Source: a virus. Taken from it: a DNA stretch of 21,528 bases. Below the pieces are notes generated by a model that did no database searches, was not told the origin of the DNA, and saw only the letters and a list, made by a program, of their open reading frames with translations. Below are positions 5,558 through 9,552 of the stretch, piece by piece; positions within the stretch are counted from its first letter, which is position 1, and the number at the start of each line of letters is the position of its first letter. The stretch lies in IMG/VR virus record IMGVR_UViG_3300032286_000222, positions 1 through 21,528 of that record; one strand, 5' to 3'. Made by a program: the position numbers and the translations under genes.

Positions 5558-6187
5558 TTAAATGGTGGCTGGGGGCTGGGCGGGTGGCGTGGTGGTGTAC
5601 TTGGCCAAGCTTTCTGCCCTTGGCTTACGAGTTCGCATCCTCCGCCCACGTCTTTTAACTTCCTTAATTTGCGTTGTCGTTCCAATGGTTTGCATGTCAT
5701 CTGTCGCACAATAGCTATTGTCTCGAATTGGTAGAGCCGGTTTCTCCGCAATTACTTCCGCATCAATAACTTGTGCCTTTTTTCTGCCAGCAATTCCCGC
5801 CAGAAGTTGAGCCAGATTACCGCTGATTCCGTGAGTGTGTTCTTGCGTAACTGCCAGGCGTGCAGATGGTTGCGCCCAGTTGTACCCTCTCTCAAGCATC
5901 CATGCTTTAGCTTGCCAAGATTTTTGTCCCGCCAACTCTATATCACGCAACAAAGAAAGCTCATGCTTTTTTCTAGCGGTTTCCACCTTACGGGCGAAAT
6001 CTGGTTTTCTACTCGCCCAAGTTTTTATCGTGTTTGCATTGACCCCAACCAAAGCCCCCGCCTTCTCCAAAGTGAACCCAGAACCACAAGCAGAAATTAT
6101 TTCTTCAGCAATTTTTTCATTAAAAATCTCACGACCATTTTTTGACTTCTCAATGGTTGAACCGGATTCCGCTGCGCTTTCGTCCAT
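5558..6187 (-). CDS. terS: Terminase small subunit
   Basis: This 209-aa protein would bind the packaging start site and hand DNA to the large subunit. A helix-turn-helix is visible at about 38-62 (FTLEKAGALVGVNANTIKTW), followed by a charged helix (ARKVETARKKHE) and the WQAKAWMLERGYNW segment at 91-104. That last segment is characteristic of small terminases of this type (consensus WQAxxWxLERRxP..). The C-terminal third is basic and proline-rich (KRRGRRMRTRKPRAE) and ends in a Pro/Thr/Ala-rich tail, probably disordered. It is the first gene of the leftward block. Its ATG has no Shine-Dalgarno, and an A/T-rich 75-bp region separates it from the divergent plus-strand cassette. Confidence 0.88.
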   Translation of the reverse strand: MDESAAESGSTIEKSKNGREIFNEKIAEEIISACGSGFTLEKAGALVGVNANTIKTWASRKPDFARKVETARKKHELSLLRDIELAGQKSWQAKAWMLERGYNWAQPSARLAVTQEHTHGISGNLAQLLAGIAGRKKAQVIDAEVIAEKPALPIRDNSYCATDDMQTIGTTTQIKEVKRRGRRMRTRKPRAESLAKYTTTPPAQPPATI

Positions 6188-6262
6188 AGGGAAAATCTAC
6201 CATAAAAAAAAATAGAAAAAAGATGTTGACGCATCCAAGCTGTTTGAATTAGTCTCTCATTT
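6188..6262. promoter_or_regulatory. Divergent promoter region between terS and plus-strand cassette
   Basis: This 75-bp gap separates the leftward terS start from the rightward cassette. It holds a run of A residues (about 6204-6221) and TTGACG at 6226-6231, a near-perfect -35 hexamer for rightward transcription, 37 bases before the ATG at 6263. At 17-18 bp spacing only weak -10 candidates occur (TTAGTC or TAGTCT near 6249-6255). Neither flanking start codon has a Shine-Dalgarno, which would suit very short or leaderless mRNAs. This is a candidate only. Confidence 0.4.
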
Positions 6263-6523
6263 ATGAAAAGCAACACACAACTGACGGCCAATCTCCTAGA
6301 GGTTGGGAAACGATATTACATGAACTCAAACCTCACTTTTACCGAAGTGATCTGCGAGGAAATGATTGTGGTGGATCGTGGCTTCTACGGCCAGCCAATC
6401 TACTTAATCGCTCGTGCTTCCGATGGTGAGAAGTTTATGATCACCAGACTTCGGAAGGATCACTTCGAAGATGCGAAGGGTCGGAGAGTTGGATTCGTTG
6501 AGTTCTCGGAAATTGTCTCTTAA
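6263..6523 (+). CDS. Hypothetical small protein (86 aa)
   Basis: First gene of the rightward cassette; not recognised. It is a mixed beta-type soluble protein (TFTEVICEEMIVVDRGFYGQPIYLIARASDGEKFMITR, read as alternating hydrophobic strands) with no membrane segment or Cys pair. The first ATG (6263) lacks a Shine-Dalgarno. An in-frame ATG at 6320-6322 (M20) follows GGGAAACG and gives a 67-aa product beginning MNSNLTFTEV, which may be the real start. It is followed 19 bases later by the next small gene. Position in a cassette of tiny genes under its own promoter suggests early expression. Confidence 0.65.
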   Translation: MKSNTQLTANLLEVGKRYYMNSNLTFTEVICEEMIVVDRGFYGQPIYLIARASDGEKFMITRLRKDHFEDAKGRRVGFVEFSEIVS

Positions 6524-6542
6524 CCAAAGAAAGGAAACACAA

Positions 6543-6722
6543 ATGAACAAAGAAGAAAAGAAGCTGGTGAATTATATGAAGAAATACAAATCAAGGAAGA
6601 CCGACAAAGTCTATCTTTGCATTGAGGATGGAGAAAAGTTTACGATGACTGCCAAGAATTGGGAAACGGCAGTTGCACAAGCGATTCACTTCAACGCATC
6701 GGTGCTTTGTGAAGTTAAATAA
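6543..6722 (+). CDS. Hypothetical small protein (59 aa)
   Basis: Not recognised. The frame is open upstream into the previous gene, but the ATG at 6543-6545 is preceded by AAAGAAAGGAAACACAA, the same leader type used by neighbouring genes, so this start is preferred. The product begins MNKEEKKLVNYMKKY, is very Lys-rich in its first third and then shows short beta-like segments (KVYLCIEDGEKFTMTA). A phrase like DGEKF-M/T also occurs in the preceding gene product, so the two may be distant paralogues; the similarity is short. No catalytic motif is seen. Confidence 0.75.
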   Translation: MNKEEKKLVNYMKKYKSRKTDKVYLCIEDGEKFTMTAKNWETAVAQAIHFNASVLCEVK

Positions 6723-6735
6723 GAAAGGAACAAAA

Positions 6736-6999
6736 ATGACACAATCAAAATACGAAAAAGAAATGGAGTCTTATGGATTCGGAATCGGTGGAACTGGTGG
6801 GGGTTGCACCGCATTCTGGAAGGATATTAAGTTTGGCGAATCCAAGTTTGAGATCCTTATCGCGAATGAATGTGAGACTCCAAGGGTTGGGGAATGGGCG
6901 AGTGTCCAATTCTCTGATTATAACGGAAACAACTTTAACTTTGAGTTAAAGGATCATAATGCCGTCTTGATGTTTGCAAGATCATTGATGACGAACTAG
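6736..6999 (+). CDS. Hypothetical small protein (87 aa)
   Basis: Not recognised. ATG at 6736-6738, preceded by AAGAAAGGAACAAAA, begins 13 bases after the previous stop. The product starts MTQSKYEKEMESYGFGIGG and has a glycine-rich patch (GFGIGGTGGGCTAFW). Then come alternating hydrophobic residues and an acidic/asparagine-rich segment (SDYNGNNFNFELKDHN). A soluble beta-rich fold is likely. The frame extends upstream to an earlier ATG at 6673, but that overlaps the previous gene and lacks this leader. Confidence 0.75.
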   Translation: MTQSKYEKEMESYGFGIGGTGGGCTAFWKDIKFGESKFEILIANECETPRVGEWASVQFSDYNGNNFNFELKDHNAVLMFARSLMTN

Positions 7000-7004
7000 G
7001 CGAT

Positions 7005-7043
7005 CAGACCCCGAAACCATCTGCAAGGGTGGTTTTCGGTCTG
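7005..7043 (+). repeat. Imperfect inverted repeat (hairpin) in cassette spacer
   Basis: CAGACC at 7005-7010 pairs with GGTCTG at 7038-7043, and GAAACCA at 7013-7019 pairs with TGGTTTTC at 7030-7037 with one bulge; the loop is around TGCAAG. It lies between the stop of the 87-aa gene (6999) and the leader of the 69-aa gene (7092). No U-run follows, so it is not a standard intrinsic terminator. It may be an RNA processing or stability element, or an operator. Confidence 0.55.
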
Positions 7044-7091
7044 GCCGATAGGCTGGAATAAAAGAAACTAAAAAGAAAAGGAAACACAAAT

Positions 7092-7301
7092 ATGAAACTA
7101 GATATCTATGGACACGACTCGACAATTGAAACCAGAGACTTGATCGACTTCACGCTGAATCCAGATGGAGTTGCTGGGAAGCTGATGAAGGTTGAGAAGC
7201 CTTACATTGTTTTACTAAAGGTTGATCCTTGGAACTCCGAACTCCATCAGTTTGAGACGAAGGAAGAAGCTGGCGAGTTTATTGCAAGCGTTGCGAAATA
7301 A
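7092..7301 (+). CDS. Hypothetical small protein (69 aa)
   Basis: Not recognised. ATG at 7092-7094 follows AAAAAGAAAAGGAAACACAAAT, the cassette leader. The product begins MKLDIYGHDSTIETRDLIDF and looks like a small alpha/beta protein, with a beta strand KPYIVLLKVD and a C-terminal helix (TKEEAGEFIASVAK). The ending TKEEAxxF.A is common in small phage proteins but does not identify a family. It is separated from the previous gene by a 92-bp spacer containing an inverted repeat. Confidence 0.75.
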   Translation: MKLDIYGHDSTIETRDLIDFTLNPDGVAGKLMKVEKPYIVLLKVDPWNSELHQFETKEEAGEFIASVAK

Positions 7302-7326
7302 AACCAAAGAAAGGACACATAAAACA

Positions 7327-7551
7327 ATGAGTGCATTATACGGAACAATTCAAGGAACAAAAGGTATGGCAACACGATGTGGGCATCGTGAATTGGTGAC
7401 TCACTCTGCTTGCTGGAATGGAGCAGTAAGGGTTGCCTTGCAACACGACAAGAAAACCAATTCGACATCATATCGTGTCGAGCTAGTGCCTTGGCACGGA
7501 ACTGGTGAAAACAAATTGCTGGCAGAGGGAGTAATGGAGAAGCAATCGTGA
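7327..7551 (+). CDS. Hypothetical small protein (74 aa)
   Basis: ATG at 7327-7329 is preceded by CAAAGAAAGGACACATAAAACA, the cassette leader; an upstream in-frame ATG at 7222 lies inside the previous gene and is rejected. The product contains GTIQGTKGMATRCGHRE and HSACWNGAVRVAL. The pattern G-(T/x)-KG-x-ATR-x-GH.....H...WN.G(V) resembles small phage proteins I recall only vaguely, of unknown function. It is beta-rich with two Cys and several His residues; metal binding cannot be judged. Its stop overlaps the next start as GTGA. Confidence 0.75.
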   Translation: MSALYGTIQGTKGMATRCGHRELVTHSACWNGAVRVALQHDKKTNSTSYRVELVPWHGTGENKLLAEGVMEKQS

Positions 7552-7679
7552 TCTGCTTCTGCATTTATAGCCGATCCGGTTCTTTCGTCTGTCGCTTTGA
7601 TGAGCGCAGCAAAGCCGAAATGTGGAGGAAGTTTCATGGCATCCAAAATTATGTAGTCAGAAAGGAGGTGTGGCGATGA
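7548..7679 (+). CDS. Hypothetical 43-aa protein, translationally coupled
   Basis: This short frame starts at GTG 7548-7550, overlapping the previous stop as GTGA, and ends at TGA 7677-7679, overlapping the next ATG as ATGA. The product begins MICFCIYSRSGSFVCRFDE and includes a basic helix-like part (RSKAEMWRKFHGI). It has three Cys in the first 15 residues. No family is recognised. The tight overlaps on both sides support it as a real coding unit, and its 3' end also carries the strong ribosome-binding site of the next gene. Confidence 0.55.
   Translation: MICFCIYSRSGSFVCRFDERSKAEMWRKFHGIQNYVVRKEVWR
7662..7670 (+). promoter_or_regulatory. Near-perfect Shine-Dalgarno for the 27-aa membrane ORF
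   Basis: AAGGAGGTG at 7662-7670 is an almost complete complement of the 16S rRNA 3' end and lies 5 bases before the ATG at 7676. It is the strongest ribosome-binding site seen in the window and decides in favour of the very short downstream ORF being translated. Confidence 0.7.
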
Positions 7680-7759
7680 GTATACCATATATTTTTGCGA
7701 ATGGCTTGGTGCTTGGGGTGATCCTAGCAACATTCGTGTTCTTTATGGGTAGGAAATAA
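7676..7759 (+). CDS. Single-span membrane microprotein (27 aa)
   Basis: ATG at 7676-7678 and stop TAA at 7757-7759 give a 27-residue product: MSIPYIFANGLVLGV followed by ILATFVFFMGRK. Residues about 5-24 form one hydrophobic helix ending in a positively charged GRK tail, so an N-out/C-in single-span orientation is expected. The start follows a near-consensus Shine-Dalgarno and overlaps the upstream stop. Tiny membrane proteins in early phage cassettes can alter host membrane enzymes, exclude other phages or assist lysis; which applies here is unknown. It is too short for homology-based naming. Confidence 0.6.
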   Translation: MSIPYIFANGLVLGVILATFVFFMGRK

Positions 7760-7765
7760 GTTTTC

Positions 7766-7799
7766 CCTCGTCTCTCCTCGTTACTGAGGGGAGGAGAGG
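7766..7799 (+). repeat. Strong hairpin, family copy 1
   Basis: CTCTCCTC (7772-7779) pairs with GAGGGGAG (7786-7793), including one T.G pair, around loop GTTACT (7780-7785). An outer CTC/GAG pairing can extend it. Seven bases after the 27-aa ORF stop, it sits in a gene spacer. A second hairpin follows (GGTCA 7798-7802 with TGACC 7816-7820). There is no U-run, so it is unlike a normal terminator. The loop and inner stem resemble the hairpin at 8014-8050. Confidence 0.6.
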
Positions 7800-7852
7800 T
7801 CAAACTCGATAGAGATGACCTAAAGAAAAGTAAAAGAAAGGACACAGAATAT

Positions 7853-8011
7853 ATGAAAGAACATACAATCACATTGACAATCAATGTTCACTTCAATGCC
7901 ATTGATCGTGAGGACGCTCAACGCATAGCCGAGGATATGAATATAAAGTTTATTCATCCCGACACTCAATCAGAAATAGAAAATGATTTGATTGATTGGG
8001 AGATTCGCTAG
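7853..8011 (+). CDS. Hypothetical small protein (52 aa)
   Basis: ATG at 7853-7855 is preceded by AAAAGAAAGGACACAGAATAT, the cassette leader, and the frame ends at TAG 8009-8011. The product begins MKEHTITLTINVHFNAIDRE. It is a beta strand with alternating residues followed by an acidic helix (REDAQRIAEDMN) and an acidic C terminus (SEIENDLIDWEIR). This beta-alpha layout with the wording V.F.A.DREDAxxIAE is common in small phage proteins of unknown role. No catalytic residues are evident. Confidence 0.7.
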   Translation: MKEHTITLTINVHFNAIDREDAQRIAEDMNIKFIHPDTQSEIENDLIDWEIR

Positions 8012-8013
8012 TC

Positions 8014-8050
8014 CCTCCTCGTTCCACCTCGTAACGGAGGTGGGCGGAGG
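8014..8050 (+). repeat. Strong hairpin, family copy 2
   Basis: CCACCTC (8024-8030) pairs perfectly with GAGGTGG (8037-8043) around loop GTAACG (8031-8036), and CCTCC (8014-8018) pairs with GGAGG (8046-8050). It begins just after the stop at 8011. Compared with the hairpin at 7766-7799, both have an inner CCTC-GT(T/A)AC(T/G)-GAGG core, while the flanking stem bases differ in a paired way. Role unknown; no U-run follows. Confidence 0.6.
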
Positions 8051-8078
8051 ATGGATTCCGGCTCTCGCTTGGAACATC

Positions 8079-8099
8079 CTAACAAACGGCAGCGTAGTC
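8079..8099 (+). repeat. ACAAACGG dispersed repeat, copy A
   Basis: CTAACAAACGGCAGCGTAGTC lies in the spacer before the 151-aa gene. It matches at least 16 of 19 core positions of copies B (8652-8672) and C (8695-8713). More diverged copies lie inside the downstream 60-aa gene. The spacer 8012-8143 holds this repeat, the hairpin above, and the leader of the next gene. Confidence 0.65.
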
Positions 8100-8143
8100 T
8101 TTATTGATTGCGCGAATGAATAAGAAAGAAAGAGGAACAGAAA

Positions 8144-8599
8144 ATGAGTCTAACAAGCATACAGAACGATTATCTAGATCCAGATAAACACCTATGGCAA
8201 GAGGAAGCACCAGAATCTTATCAAGTAGTTTTGGATTTCTTCGAAGCAGAAAACGAGGAACTAGCTATAAAAAGTGCATATAAAAATACTGACGCTGGGA
8301 TATGGCTAGAGTTTTGCGAATACGGAATCCGCCTTGGGAGCATTGTCGAAGGGTGCGATTTTGGAACTGCGATTTATGTTCTTCGTTACAAGGATGACTT
8401 CACAAAAGAGGACATCCAAAAACGCATAAACGCAGTCGAACACGAGGCCAACGAGATTTGGAAATGGGCTAATGAGCCTTGCACAAAAACTGGTAGGCCA
8501 AGTGCGATGGGTAAATATACGCAAGCAGAGTTAGGAATGGATTCTCCAGATACTAACTACAACTACGGAATGTTTGAACAAGACGGAAGGAGTAGTTAA
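8144..8599 (+). CDS. Hypothetical protein (151 aa)
   Basis: Not recognised; the largest gene of the rightward cassette. ATG at 8144-8146 follows AGAAAGAAAGAGGAACAGAAA. The product is acidic (many Glu and Asp) with segments typical of an alpha/beta domain: SYQVVLDFFEAENEELA, IWLEFCEYGIRLGSIVEG, AIYVLRYKDDFTKEDI and a helix AVEHEANEIWKWANE. The C-terminal 35 residues are polar and probably flexible (SPDTNYNYGMFEQDGRSS). An acidic small protein could act as a DNA mimic or a decoy for a host DNA-binding protein, but nothing specific shows that. Confidence 0.75.
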   Translation: MSLTSIQNDYLDPDKHLWQEEAPESYQVVLDFFEAENEELAIKSAYKNTDAGIWLEFCEYGIRLGSIVEGCDFGTAIYVLRYKDDFTKEDIQKRINAVEHEANEIWKWANEPCTKTGRPSAMGKYTQAELGMDSPDTNYNYGMFEQDGRSS

Positions 8600-8615
8600 C
8601 TTAGATAAGTAAATT

Positions 8616-8643
8616 GCCAAGGGTTCAAACCCCTGCGGCTTTT
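8616..8643 (+). terminator. Possible intrinsic terminator
   Basis: GCC (8616-8618) and GGGT (8621-8624) pair with ACCC (8629-8632) and GGC (8637-8639), with two bases unpaired on the left and four on the right. TTTT (8640-8643) follows directly. It is located 17 bases after the stop of the 151-aa gene. The stem is short and interrupted, so termination would be partial at best. The sequence GGTTCAAACCCC resembles a tRNA T-arm but no tRNA surrounds it. Confidence 0.4.
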
Positions 8644-8651
8644 CGCGCTTG

Positions 8652-8672
8652 CTAACAAACGGCAGCGCAGCC
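8652..8672 (+). repeat. ACAAACGG dispersed repeat, copy B
   Basis: CTAACAAACGGCAGCGCAGCC; differs from copy A at two positions in 21. It sits just after the possible terminator in the non-coding spacer 8600-8725. If read in frame, it would encode LTNGSAA, like LTNGRPA at the end of the 60-aa protein downstream. Confidence 0.65.
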
Positions 8673-8694
8673 ATTAATCCGGTTGCGTCTTTAC

Positions 8695-8713
8695 AACAAA
8701 CGGCAGCATAGCC
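8695..8713 (+). repeat. ACAAACGG dispersed repeat, copy C
   Basis: AACAAACGGCAGCATAGCC, 22 bases after copy B and immediately before the ribosome-binding site (AAGGAG) of the 60-aa gene. More diverged copies occur at about 8829-8847, 8877-8895 and 8897-8915, inside and at the end of that gene. Confidence 0.6.
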
Positions 8714-8725
8714 ATAAGGAGATCA

Positions 8726-8908
8726 ATGGACGAAAAAGAAGTCATAAGAGAATATTTTTCCCGCCTGGGAAAGAAGGGTGGAAGCGTTAAAGGTCAGACC
8801 AAGGCAAGGGCATTGTCTAGGGAACACTATCAAACGGTAGCCCAGGCGCAGCGTGAGCGTTGGGATAAGTGGCGGCTTACAAACGGAAGGCCAGCTATCA
8901 AACGGTAG
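8726..8908 (+). CDS. Small basic KGG-type protein (60 aa)
   Basis: ATG at 8726-8728 is preceded by ATAAGGAGATCA, a good ribosome-binding site. The product begins MDEKEVIREYFSRLGKKGG and has LGKKGGSVKGQTKARALSREH followed by VAQAQRERW. The pattern (L/M)G(K/R)KGG...K(A/G)...LS.E........A...RW is found in many short bacterial and phage proteins, some linked with DNA binding; the function here is unknown. The final residues LTNGRPAIKR are encoded by DNA matching the dispersed ACAAACGG repeat. The gene ends one base before the stop of the convergent minus-strand gene. Confidence 0.75.
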   Translation: MDEKEVIREYFSRLGKKGGSVKGQTKARALSREHYQTVAQAQRERWDKWRLTNGRPAIKR

Positions 8909-8909
8909 C

Positions 8910-9110
8910 CTAGCGACCTATCCTGCAACAGCAGGCTCGATTACCCAATGGAATGTCAGGGATGGGTAGTGGCTCAACCTTGAACTTAACACTATGTTCT
9001 GGCTGTCCTCCACTTACCTTGCTACCAATACGCTTTCTAGGCCTATCCTTGCTCGATTTTAAGCCATCCTGATGCCTATTCTTGCCTTCCTTTACTGCCT
9101 TACGTCTCAT
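8910..9110 (-). CDS. Hypothetical basic protein (66 aa)
   Basis: Not recognised. ATG at 9108-9110 lies inside the last codons of the upstream gene (11-bp overlap), preceded by GATGAGGTAG. The N-terminal half is strongly basic (MRRKAVKEGKNRHQ, DRPRKRIGSK), suggesting nucleic-acid contact; the C terminus has ACCCRIGR. The stop codon is one base from the convergent stop of the plus-strand gene. The reading frame is short and low-complexity, so it may not be real. The coupled start and the end abutting its neighbour are the main support. Confidence 0.5.
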   Translation of the reverse strand: MRRKAVKEGKNRHQDGLKSSKDRPRKRIGSKVSGGQPEHSVKFKVEPLPIPDIPLGNRACCCRIGR

Positions 9111-9387
9111 CTACCTCATCCCCATCAAAGTCTTTAGGAATCGAATCCTTGAGCGATTGCAGATCCTTCTGGTGCTTCCTGAAGAACAACGACAGCCTAG
9201 CCACAGCCAGACTAATTTCCGCCCACTCAGTCTCGAACACCTCGAAGCTACAATTGTTCTCCATGTCATTCACAAGCTGGCACAGCAAACGGAGGACTGC
9301 ATGCAACTGCGCATTCTCTGCGTGCAGCAGCCGGATATACTGCATCTTCAGCCTATCTGAGTCTTTCACCTGGTTATTGTAGCACAC
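9100..9387 (-). CDS. Hypothetical coiled-coil protein (95 aa)
   Basis: Not recognised. The start is GTG at 9385-9387 with AAAAGGGTGCGAG upstream; a second GTG six codons later is possible. Residues about 12-42 (LKMQYIRLLHAENAQLH followed by AVLRLLCQLVNDM) show heptad-like leucine spacing, so a coiled coil is likely. A second helical, more basic segment follows (LFFRKHQKDLQSLKDS), and the C terminus is acidic (DFDGDEVDET). It lies at the end of the leftward replication block, after a 165-bp structured intergenic region. A regulatory or structural role cannot be distinguished. Confidence 0.65.
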   Translation of the reverse strand: MCYNNQVKDSDRLKMQYIRLLHAENAQLHAVLRLLCQLVNDMENNCSFEVFETEWAEISLAVARLSLFFRKHQKDLQSLKDSIPKDFDGDEVDET

Positions 9388-9552
9388 CGGCTCGCACCCT
9401 TTTCAATTAAAAGTGAATCGCACTACGGGAATGAGCGTAGCGGTAGGGGTAGGACGGACTAAGGAGTCCTACCTCTACATTCCCTTCGTGATTTTCTTTC
9501 ATATATATATATGAGTCTGAATGCTCAATAAATGACAGCGAAATGACAGGAC
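9388..9552. promoter_or_regulatory. Structured intergenic region (hairpin, AT palindrome, direct repeats)
   Basis: This 165-bp gap downstream of the helicase gene has four elements. They are an inverted repeat CTTTT-CAATT-AAAAG (9399-9413), a long GC-rich hairpin (9427-9484), the perfect 14-bp palindrome CATATATATATATG (9500-9513), and two direct copies of AAATGACAG (9530-9538 and 9541-9549) with starts 11 bp apart, one helical turn. Such a cluster beside primase and helicase genes could be a replication origin, an operator or a termination region. No iterons beyond the pair are seen. Confidence 0.45.
9427..9484. repeat. Long GC-rich inverted repeat (hairpin)
   Basis: GTAGGGGTAGGAC (9443-9455) pairs with GTCCTACCTCTAC (9466-9478), 13 positions with one G.T pair, around a 10-base loop. 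Outside it GGGAAT (9427-9432) pairs with ATTCCC (9479-9484), leaving a bulge of about 10 bases on the left arm. CAC (9421-9423) and GTG (9488-9490) may extend it. On the plus strand it is followed by ATTTTCTTTC, on the minus strand by no U-run. Confidence 0.75.

Follow-up and report, generated by a model that had tools for sequence, protein, structure and literature searches.

A covarying RNA element behind the stop codons of small genes in a group of uncultured tailed phages, and its possible role as a translation-termination insulator

Two related hairpins stand behind two neighboring small genes of an uncultured virus, and this raises the question of what structured elements do at such positions. 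The window analyzed here is the whole of a 21,528-base virus record from a tailed phage. Its minus strand carries the portal and large terminase genes and, further right, a primase/helicase gene, and between these, at 6263-8908, small ORFs on the plus strand form a cassette that contains both hairpins. The original prediction had the first hairpin right at 7766-7799; the start given for the second, 8014, falls in an outer helix, and the matching 34-nt unit is 8017-8050. Hairpin 1 reads CCTCGTCTCTCCTC-GTTACT-GAGGGGAGGAGAGG and hairpin 2 reads CCTCGTTCCACCTC-GTAACG-GAGGTGGGCGGAGG, both with a 14+6+14 layout in which a 2x2 internal loop follows the first four pairs. As had been predicted, they lie behind the stops of two small ORFs (TAA 7757-7759 and TAG 8009-8011) and have a common core, CCTCGTNACNGAGG, of which the 21,528-base record contains exactly two copies (0 occurrences of the backward pattern). 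An outer helix, P0, extends the hairpins to 7760-7805 and 8011-8056. With P0 included, hairpin 1 folds at -23.6 kcal/mol (z -4.0) and hairpin 2 at -28.7 kcal/mol (z -4.6), and in either case 0 of 200 dinucleotide shuffles were as good. In the following list HPI denotes the hairpin together with P0, and HPII a second hairpin on its 3' side.

7005-7043, plus strand: hairpin of a different family, CAGACCCCGAAACCATC-TGCAA-GGGTGGTTTTCGGTCTG, directly after the TAG at 6997-6999
7676-7759, plus strand: ORF of a 27-aa hydrophobic peptide, MSIPYIFANGLVLGVILATFVFFMGRK, which precedes element 1 and ends with the TAA at 7757-7759
7760-7805, plus strand: HPI of element 1 (state 1), scoring 63.2 bits with a covariance model that has this copy among its 47 training sequences
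7760-7763 with 7802-7805, plus strand: P0 of element 1, GTTT/AAAC
7766-7769 with 7796-7799, plus strand: P1 of element 1, CCTC/GAGG, followed by a 2x2 internal loop, GT/GA
7772-7779 with 7786-7793, plus strand: P2 of element 1, closing the loop GTTACT at 7780-7785
7797-7821, plus strand: HPII of element 1, AGGTC (7797-7801) with GACCT (7817-7821) around CTC-GATA-GAG (7805-7814)
7853-8011, plus strand: 52-aa ORF in an exchangeable slot between the two elements, ending with the TAG at 8009-8011; its cluster has 8 members, all before type B copies
8011-8056, plus strand: HPI of element 2 (state 1), scoring 62.5 bits with the same model, this copy also being one of the 47 training sequences
From 8011, plus strand: P0 of element 2, GTCC/GGAT, its first base being the G of the TAG stop
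8017-8020 with 8047-8050, plus strand: P1 of element 2
8023-8030 with 8037-8044, plus strand: P2 of element 2, closing the loop GTAACG at 8031-8036
8048-8080, plus strand: HPII of element 2, AGGATG (8048-8053) with CATCCT (8075-8080), an inner stem and a TCTC loop
8092-8113, plus strand: third hairpin, GCGTAGTC/GATTGCGC, in the leader of the next gene, recognized by reading and folding

The stem bases outside the core differ between the two window copies and stay paired, as originally noted, and the same holds among the relatives. From 5' to 3', HPI is made up of four P0 pairs, a 2x2 loop, P1 in which CCT(C/T) pairs with (G/A)AGG, a further 2x2 loop, eight P2 pairs and an apical loop of 5-7 nt. 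A search that used the anchors only and required no pairing of P2 or of the 3' half of P0 returned 106 distinct strings, of which 104 were kept and 2 unrelated ones (4 of 8 positions paired) were dropped afterwards; run on the reversed sequence it gave 1 match. In this search, which left P2 unconstrained, 57 of 59 five-prime halves were found to form 7-8 of the 8 P2 pairs. An alignment of 47 of the 104 strings, drawn from those with six-nt loops (38 of 71), seven-nt loops (7 of 27) and five-nt loops (2 of 6), showed 98.8% of cells paired in comparison to 85.5% in shuffled alignments, changes on both sides in 11 of 16 pairs, and a covariation score of 0.538 against 0.261 for shuffles and at most 0.215 for slid controls. 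RNAalifold, unaided, arrived at the same HPI fold. Since shuffles ignore relatedness, a minimum spanning tree of the 81 distinct stems was added, along which 34 double changes keep a pair and 7 break or make one, with 46 single changes keeping the pair through G·U; slid controls kept only 0-2 double changes. The predicted selection for structure is thus borne out by covariation and compensatory stem changes in relatives. As to what kind of structure is selected, the original wording, "RNA or DNA", can be narrowed: across the 104 distinct strings G·U occupies 134 cells (72 in P0 and 62 in P2, counted as cells and not as events) and A·C none, which points to selection on the sense-strand RNA and not on double-stranded DNA. 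The parts of HPI that do not pair are constrained as well. The inner 2x2 loop is mostly GU opposite GA, CG or CA, and its first position is never paired, since G faces A or G there in all 104 strings. By reading, U-N-purine occupies positions 2-4 in all 98 six- and seven-nt apical loops, whereas the remaining 6 of 104, with the five-nt loops CACAA or CGCAA, do not have this pattern.

The original prediction came with the proposal that related phages be searched for further copies and for covariation, and such a search was carried out. A terminase search of IMG/VR yielded 232 relatives, of which 80 were kept, and the covariance model found 85 strong copies in 58 of these 80 loci in addition to the two in the window. 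All strong copies lie on the strand opposite the terminase, 1.4-3.5 kb upstream of its start; the model's other 34 of 121 matches are weak and mirror the strong ones in position. The element is present in 51 of 51 loci whose sequence extends 3.6 kb or more beyond the terminase on its upstream side, as one copy in 27 and two copies in 24, and in 7 of 29 loci with a shorter upstream stretch. Scans of IMG/VR with a pattern, together with a search of all loci that included a pairing filter and so biased the set toward pairing, raised the number of contexts to 200, among them one cut-off duplicate, and that of distinct hairpin sequences to 75. Among the 134 further loci collected in this way (L083-L216), many being alternative cuts of the same contigs, one or more core genes of the window phage are present in 133, and L204, the exception, has two of that phage's cassette genes; the element is therefore known here from one group of uncultured tailed phages. 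Searches outside this group were negative in each case: a 50,697-record phage collection gave no DNA match to 6200-9100, distant search included, tblastn with the 151-aa ORF gave no match, and a TerL search of genome contigs gave no relative. The sole pattern match in cellular genomes, in Paenibacillus rigui (L217), was set aside as a chance hit given that by reading only 3 of 8 P2 positions pair. Akkermansia phages were considered as a clue to the host and rejected, the best-ranked cultured TerL proteins being too distant at 35-38% identity, and the covariance model found no element at E up to 1 in the Akkermansia phage Chambord (L218). At gathering scores the window has no Rfam 15 match, and 7700-8750 has none at E up to 1. 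Among the titles and abstract openings listed by literature searches on phage structured RNAs, on ribosome termination structures together with phages and on stem-loops behind phage stop codons, none described the element.

We then considered where the element sits relative to the genes that precede it. An ORF of at least 22 codons precedes the hairpin in 194 of the 200 contexts, and single-linkage clustering of the encoded proteins (E below 1e-3) gave 28 clusters. Three clusters (108, 12 and 4 members), mainly short hydrophobic peptides, account for 124 of the 194 and stand mostly before type A and C copies, and the other 25 clusters stand mostly before type B copies. P0 starts with the stop codon or right after it. 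Taking the ORF with its stop nearest to 5.5 nt, the distance from stop to P1 was 5 nt in 100 contexts, 6 in 64, 7 in 8, 8 in 13 and 9-15 in 9, and the last nine of the 194 count against the insulator reading set out below. When the longest ORF was taken instead, 160 of 194 still had 5 nt (98) or 6 nt (62), with 4 contexts ambiguous, in comparison to 39 of 4000 random nearby sites with a stop 5-6 nt upstream. This stop-codon register is not described in the original prediction. In 179 contexts the next start, located with a simple SD-ATG pattern, follows the hairpin at a distance of 45-100 nt. The predicted lack of a U-run was confirmed, as 0 of 198 contexts have at least 5 T within 8 nt after HPI on either strand, and 0 of 174 after HPII. 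A terminator scan reported neither element and one other plus-strand site, at 7569-7581, and a scan of 6100-9400 for sigma-70-like promoters gave no plus-strand site and 2 minus-strand sites, against 4.5 in shuffles. Given this lack of U-runs and of plus-strand promoter-like sites, the neighboring cassette genes probably share one message. A role in stimulating readthrough was rejected because in only 7 of 166 cases is the downstream sequence in frame and open, and 148 meet another stop; in the window the frame behind TAA 7757 is open, yet this is not conserved. A short ORF starting at ATGGAT behind type B hairpins was rejected likewise, since by reading the relatives have ATGGATTAA there, and indels downstream.

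Several features of the surrounding cassette were noted in passing. The hydrophobic peptides, 27-31 aa long and belonging to several clusters, are usually encoded 5' of the first element, as at 7676-7759 in the window, and by eye have one TM-like stretch and a basic C-terminus; their likeness to small membrane toxins or holin-like peptides is one of size alone. No cassette gene was detected more widely than the one at 8726-8908, whose neighbors change; it encodes p8726, a 60-aa basic protein beginning SRLGKKGGSVKG. It was detected in 121 of the 134 further loci and in 57 of the 80 terminase loci, gave no Pfam match at E up to 0.1, and might be an RNA-binding partner. A 16-19 nt motif (ACAAACGGCAGCGYAG and kin; families D2 and D3) is found at six places in window positions 8079-8913, both between and inside the last cassette genes, and in relatives it can, by reading, fold as an additional hairpin (GCGCAGTC/GATTGCGC or GCGCAGCGATGCGC) upstream of the next SD. 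On the terminase strand, at L009:10755-10788 and L004:16934-16967, there is a GGGGAGG-loop-CCTCCCC hairpin with a stem that differs among relatives and keeps its pairing. The hairpin family at 7005-7043, which lies in a 92-nt gap of the plus cassette, is represented by 17 distinct contexts, is followed by a GATA-loop hairpin, GCCGATAGGC, that is similar to HPII, and by reading has compensatory stem variants CA/TG, AC/GT and GC/GC. That a separate family with compensatory variants of its own also lies behind a stop suggests that structure right after the stop is a general habit of the plus cassette.

The second hairpin, likewise not described in the original prediction, uses nucleotides of the first. 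In 174 of 198 contexts a CCT behind HPI is able to pair with the AGG that closes P1; by reading, the other 24 have TCC (19) or TCT (5) there. HPII encloses a short stem, in many cases capped by a GATA loop, and the pair adjoining AGG/CCT in the 174 contexts is UA in 60, AU in 49, UG in 48, GU in 1, CG in 1 and unpaired in 15. In element 1, HPII has the AGG in common with P1 and further nucleotides in common with P0. Because the same nucleotides are used, P0/P1 and HPII are mutually exclusive. Conservation of HPII was assessed in 26 sequences, i.e., 25 of 29 representatives that stand for 64 distinct sequences plus the window's own, with the aligned type B tails left out of the counts. The results showed 89.6% of HPII cells paired against 82.8% in shuffles and a covariation score of 0.333 against 0.222 for shuffles and at most 0.149 for slid controls; roughly half of the sequences fail to form two of the ten pairs, and shuffles are not exceeded on two of the five covariation measures, namely the number of pairs changed on both sides and that of further pair types. 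P0 in the same sequences was 98.1% paired against 88.5%. The AGG/CCT pairs are invariant in this alignment and hence contribute no covariation, and such invariance would be expected of bases that must fit two partners. At column 45 an A (14 sequences) has U as both alternative partners, and a G (12) has C as its P0 partner and C (9) or U (3) as its HPII partner; this change may be a single event separating type A from the other types. Over 150 elements the fold with HPI (state 1) is more stable than the fold with HPII (state 2) by a mean of 1.8 kcal/mol (sd 2.7), and in the printed sample the difference is near zero for type A and 3-5 kcal/mol for many type B copies. When the first 10 nt were masked in folding, the AGG paired on its 3' side with a mean probability of 0.84-0.95 depending on type (n=179). 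HPI and tail types combine freely, in that 27 of 75 HPIs occur with at least two tails and 27 of 86 tails with at least two HPIs.

Taken as a whole, the hairpins would best be explained as the first half of a cis-acting RNA of ~62-70 nt that serves as a translation-termination insulator of the RTS kind at the stops of small genes, a reading to which we assign a probability of about 0.42. RTS, for ribosome termination structure, denotes stable mRNA structure immediately after the stop, whichever stop is used, as put forward in the main text of Chemla et al. 2020 (PMC7518266). The element would likely be part of a polycistronic message, fixed to the stop of whatever small gene precedes it, and a stable structure met by the front of the terminating ribosome would act as a barrier, keeping it from sliding into the next gene or re-initiating there, with the outcome that the exchangeable cassette genes would be translated independently. 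A terminating ribosome covers about 10 nt behind the stop, which is close to the length of P0, loop and P1. With no ribosome present, P0, internal loop and P1, which make up the first 10 nt after the stop, would pair with GAGG..RRAY to give one long hairpin, state 1. With a ribosome on the stop, these ~10 nt would be covered, P2 would be folded at the ribosome's edge and the freed AGG would close HPII, state 2. A barrier would therefore stand in both situations, and its conservation in both would explain why two exclusive folds are kept. What the analysis shows is the RNA family with its two sets of helices and their mutual exclusion, the strand, the stop register, the independence from particular genes and the absence of U-runs; the shared message, the ribosome's part and the insulating effect are what we infer. 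A register that is kept behind any gene is most simply read by a terminating ribosome.

Folding energies in the plus cassette mostly fit the insulator reading. The 40-nt window after the stop at 7759 folds at -21.8 kcal/mol (z -6.1, 100 mononucleotide shuffles) and that after 8011 at -22.9 kcal/mol (z -4.5, 100 mononucleotide shuffles), both below the -6 kcal/mol per 40-nt window behind the stop that is used as the RTS threshold. Over the plus cassette, 40-nt energies come to 0, 0 and -2.5 at the short gaps (19, 16 and 25 nt) and to -14.3, -21.8, -22.9 and -8.5 at the long ones (92, 93, 132 and 126 nt), one of the latter with a modest z (-1.1), so that the RTS gap rule, structure at intergenic gaps of at least 25 nt and none at shorter ones, rests here on three short and four long gaps. 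An apparent 124-nt gap after 7551, partly filled by an overlapping ORF, gave -5.7 (z -1.0), and 21 ORFs chosen from an incomplete gene list on the minus strand do not follow the rule. An energy barrier alone would need no conserved internal loop, no constrained apical loop and no exclusive fold, and so something more specific may read the RNA. A stronger version, in which the element would be a mobile RNA switch, tied to no particular gene, that senses the terminating ribosome itself, with the 10 nt sized to the ribosome's footprint and occupancy picking the fold, and a standard part placed behind acquired genes, strikes us as doubtful; if it were true, the element would be a natural "terminator for translation" that phages attach behind newly acquired small genes.

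The two folds could also serve the opposite end, namely coupling. In an unlikely alternative, translation of the upstream gene would flip the AGG from P1 to HPII and free the next SD, much as an attenuator exchanges 1:2 for 2:3, so that the downstream gene would be made only during translation of the upstream one, and the RNA-unfolding model of translational coupling, as set out in part of a 2025 review (PMC12548453), is the basis for it. The mutually exclusive, covarying folds of nearly equal energy would suit such a switch, and the predicted accessibility of the SD rises from 0.56 to 0.84 when the 10 nt are masked (n=178; 0.76 with random 10-mers). However, shuffled versions of the native 10 nt give 0.50, below the native value, masking the 5' arm of P2 works nearly as well (0.81), inclusion of ~30 nt of upstream coding sequence brings the free value to 0.64, and the next start is those 45-100 nt away. 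Shuffled 10-mers thus hide the SD equally well or better, from which sequestration appears to be a product of pyrimidine content and not specially selected, and it is not supported as a selected function. The processing, stability and protein-binding roles that the original prediction had offered each retain some probability, but by themselves they leave both the stop register and the exclusive second hairpin without explanation. By analogy to T7, the element might be an intercistronic processing site for RNase III or another double-strand nuclease that also stabilizes 3' ends, which is improbable to much the same degree as coupling. The state-1 hairpin, with ~20 pair positions and two symmetric internal loops, has the length and the loops that suit RNase III substrates, and it is a sense-strand RNA structure between ORFs with no promoter- or terminator-like site reported at the elements; the 5-6 nt register behind 28 protein clusters and the conserved alternative fold would nevertheless go unexplained. 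T7 RNase III sites are irregular intercistronic hairpins in phage mRNA and in this are like the window elements, and we know of none with a fixed stop register or an exclusive second hairpin. Quite unlikely is a binding site at which a phage protein such as p8726 would read the GU internal loop and the apical loop. The invariantly unpaired inner-loop position and the U-N-purine loops, both kept as the stems drift, and the wide detection of p8726 would agree with this, but the 6 five-nt loops that depart from U-N-purine and the missing Pfam match of p8726 do not help it.

Two further readings look to known phage and mobile-element systems, and we consider both highly improbable. One is an antiterminator RNA that would bind RNA polymerase by analogy to put of HK022, which is described in the sections of PMC9378689 drawn on here as ~70 nt with two stem-loops, in two genomic copies downstream of early promoters. 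The likeness lies in size, in two stem-loops within ~70 nt and in the two copies, as found in 24 of the 51 covered relatives; put differs in its position, the window copies being behind stops inside a gene cassette, and in having no strand shared by alternative folds. The other is a DNA recombination module, like PeSL or integron attC, with the shuffling of small genes as its main role. Many unrelated genes stand before the second copy and the HPI and tail types occur in many combinations, which would fit; homology, however, needs no compensatory changes, and the strand-specific wobble pairs point to RNA. The promoter-early-stem-loop cassettes are reportedly the work of Arbiol (2010) and Comeau (2014). 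In T4-type phages, according to the portion of PMC4503421 used here, PeSL are repeated stem-loop modules at places where small genes are exchanged. The window elements differ from PeSL, compared by description, in having neither a plus-strand sigma-70-like promoter site nor a U-run. An integron attC has the core GTTRRRY/RYYYAAC, and by reading this was not seen in that order, so attC was rejected.

The closest known system is RTS, and insulation at the stop remains our preferred reading. As given in the main text of the RTS paper, the signal peaks at the edge of the stretch shielded by the terminating ribosome and is enriched at gaps of at least 25 nt (PMC7518266). The paper bases it on averaged folding energies and on a synthetic operon in E. 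coli, and its authors call a role in natural genomes speculation and ask for tests with native sequences (PMC7518266). Should the element be an insulator, it would be a natural and strongly covarying RTS, reused behind unrelated genes with many evolved stem variants; these natural variants allow direct compensatory-mutation tests of how the terminating ribosome meets mRNA structure, and the element would reveal how a phage insulates freely exchangeable genes. The window structure is like RTS in that it, too, comes directly after the stop. RTS in that paper is a folding-energy signal with no sequence or structure family, and its main text contains no form of the words covariation, compensatory or phage (PMC7518266). 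In contrast, the window element belongs to a single defined RNA family: its internal loop is conserved, it has a second fold that excludes the first, and it recurs behind many genes. It is best called an RNA family without a match in Rfam 15 and, as a kind, a new family-level variant of the RTS idea.
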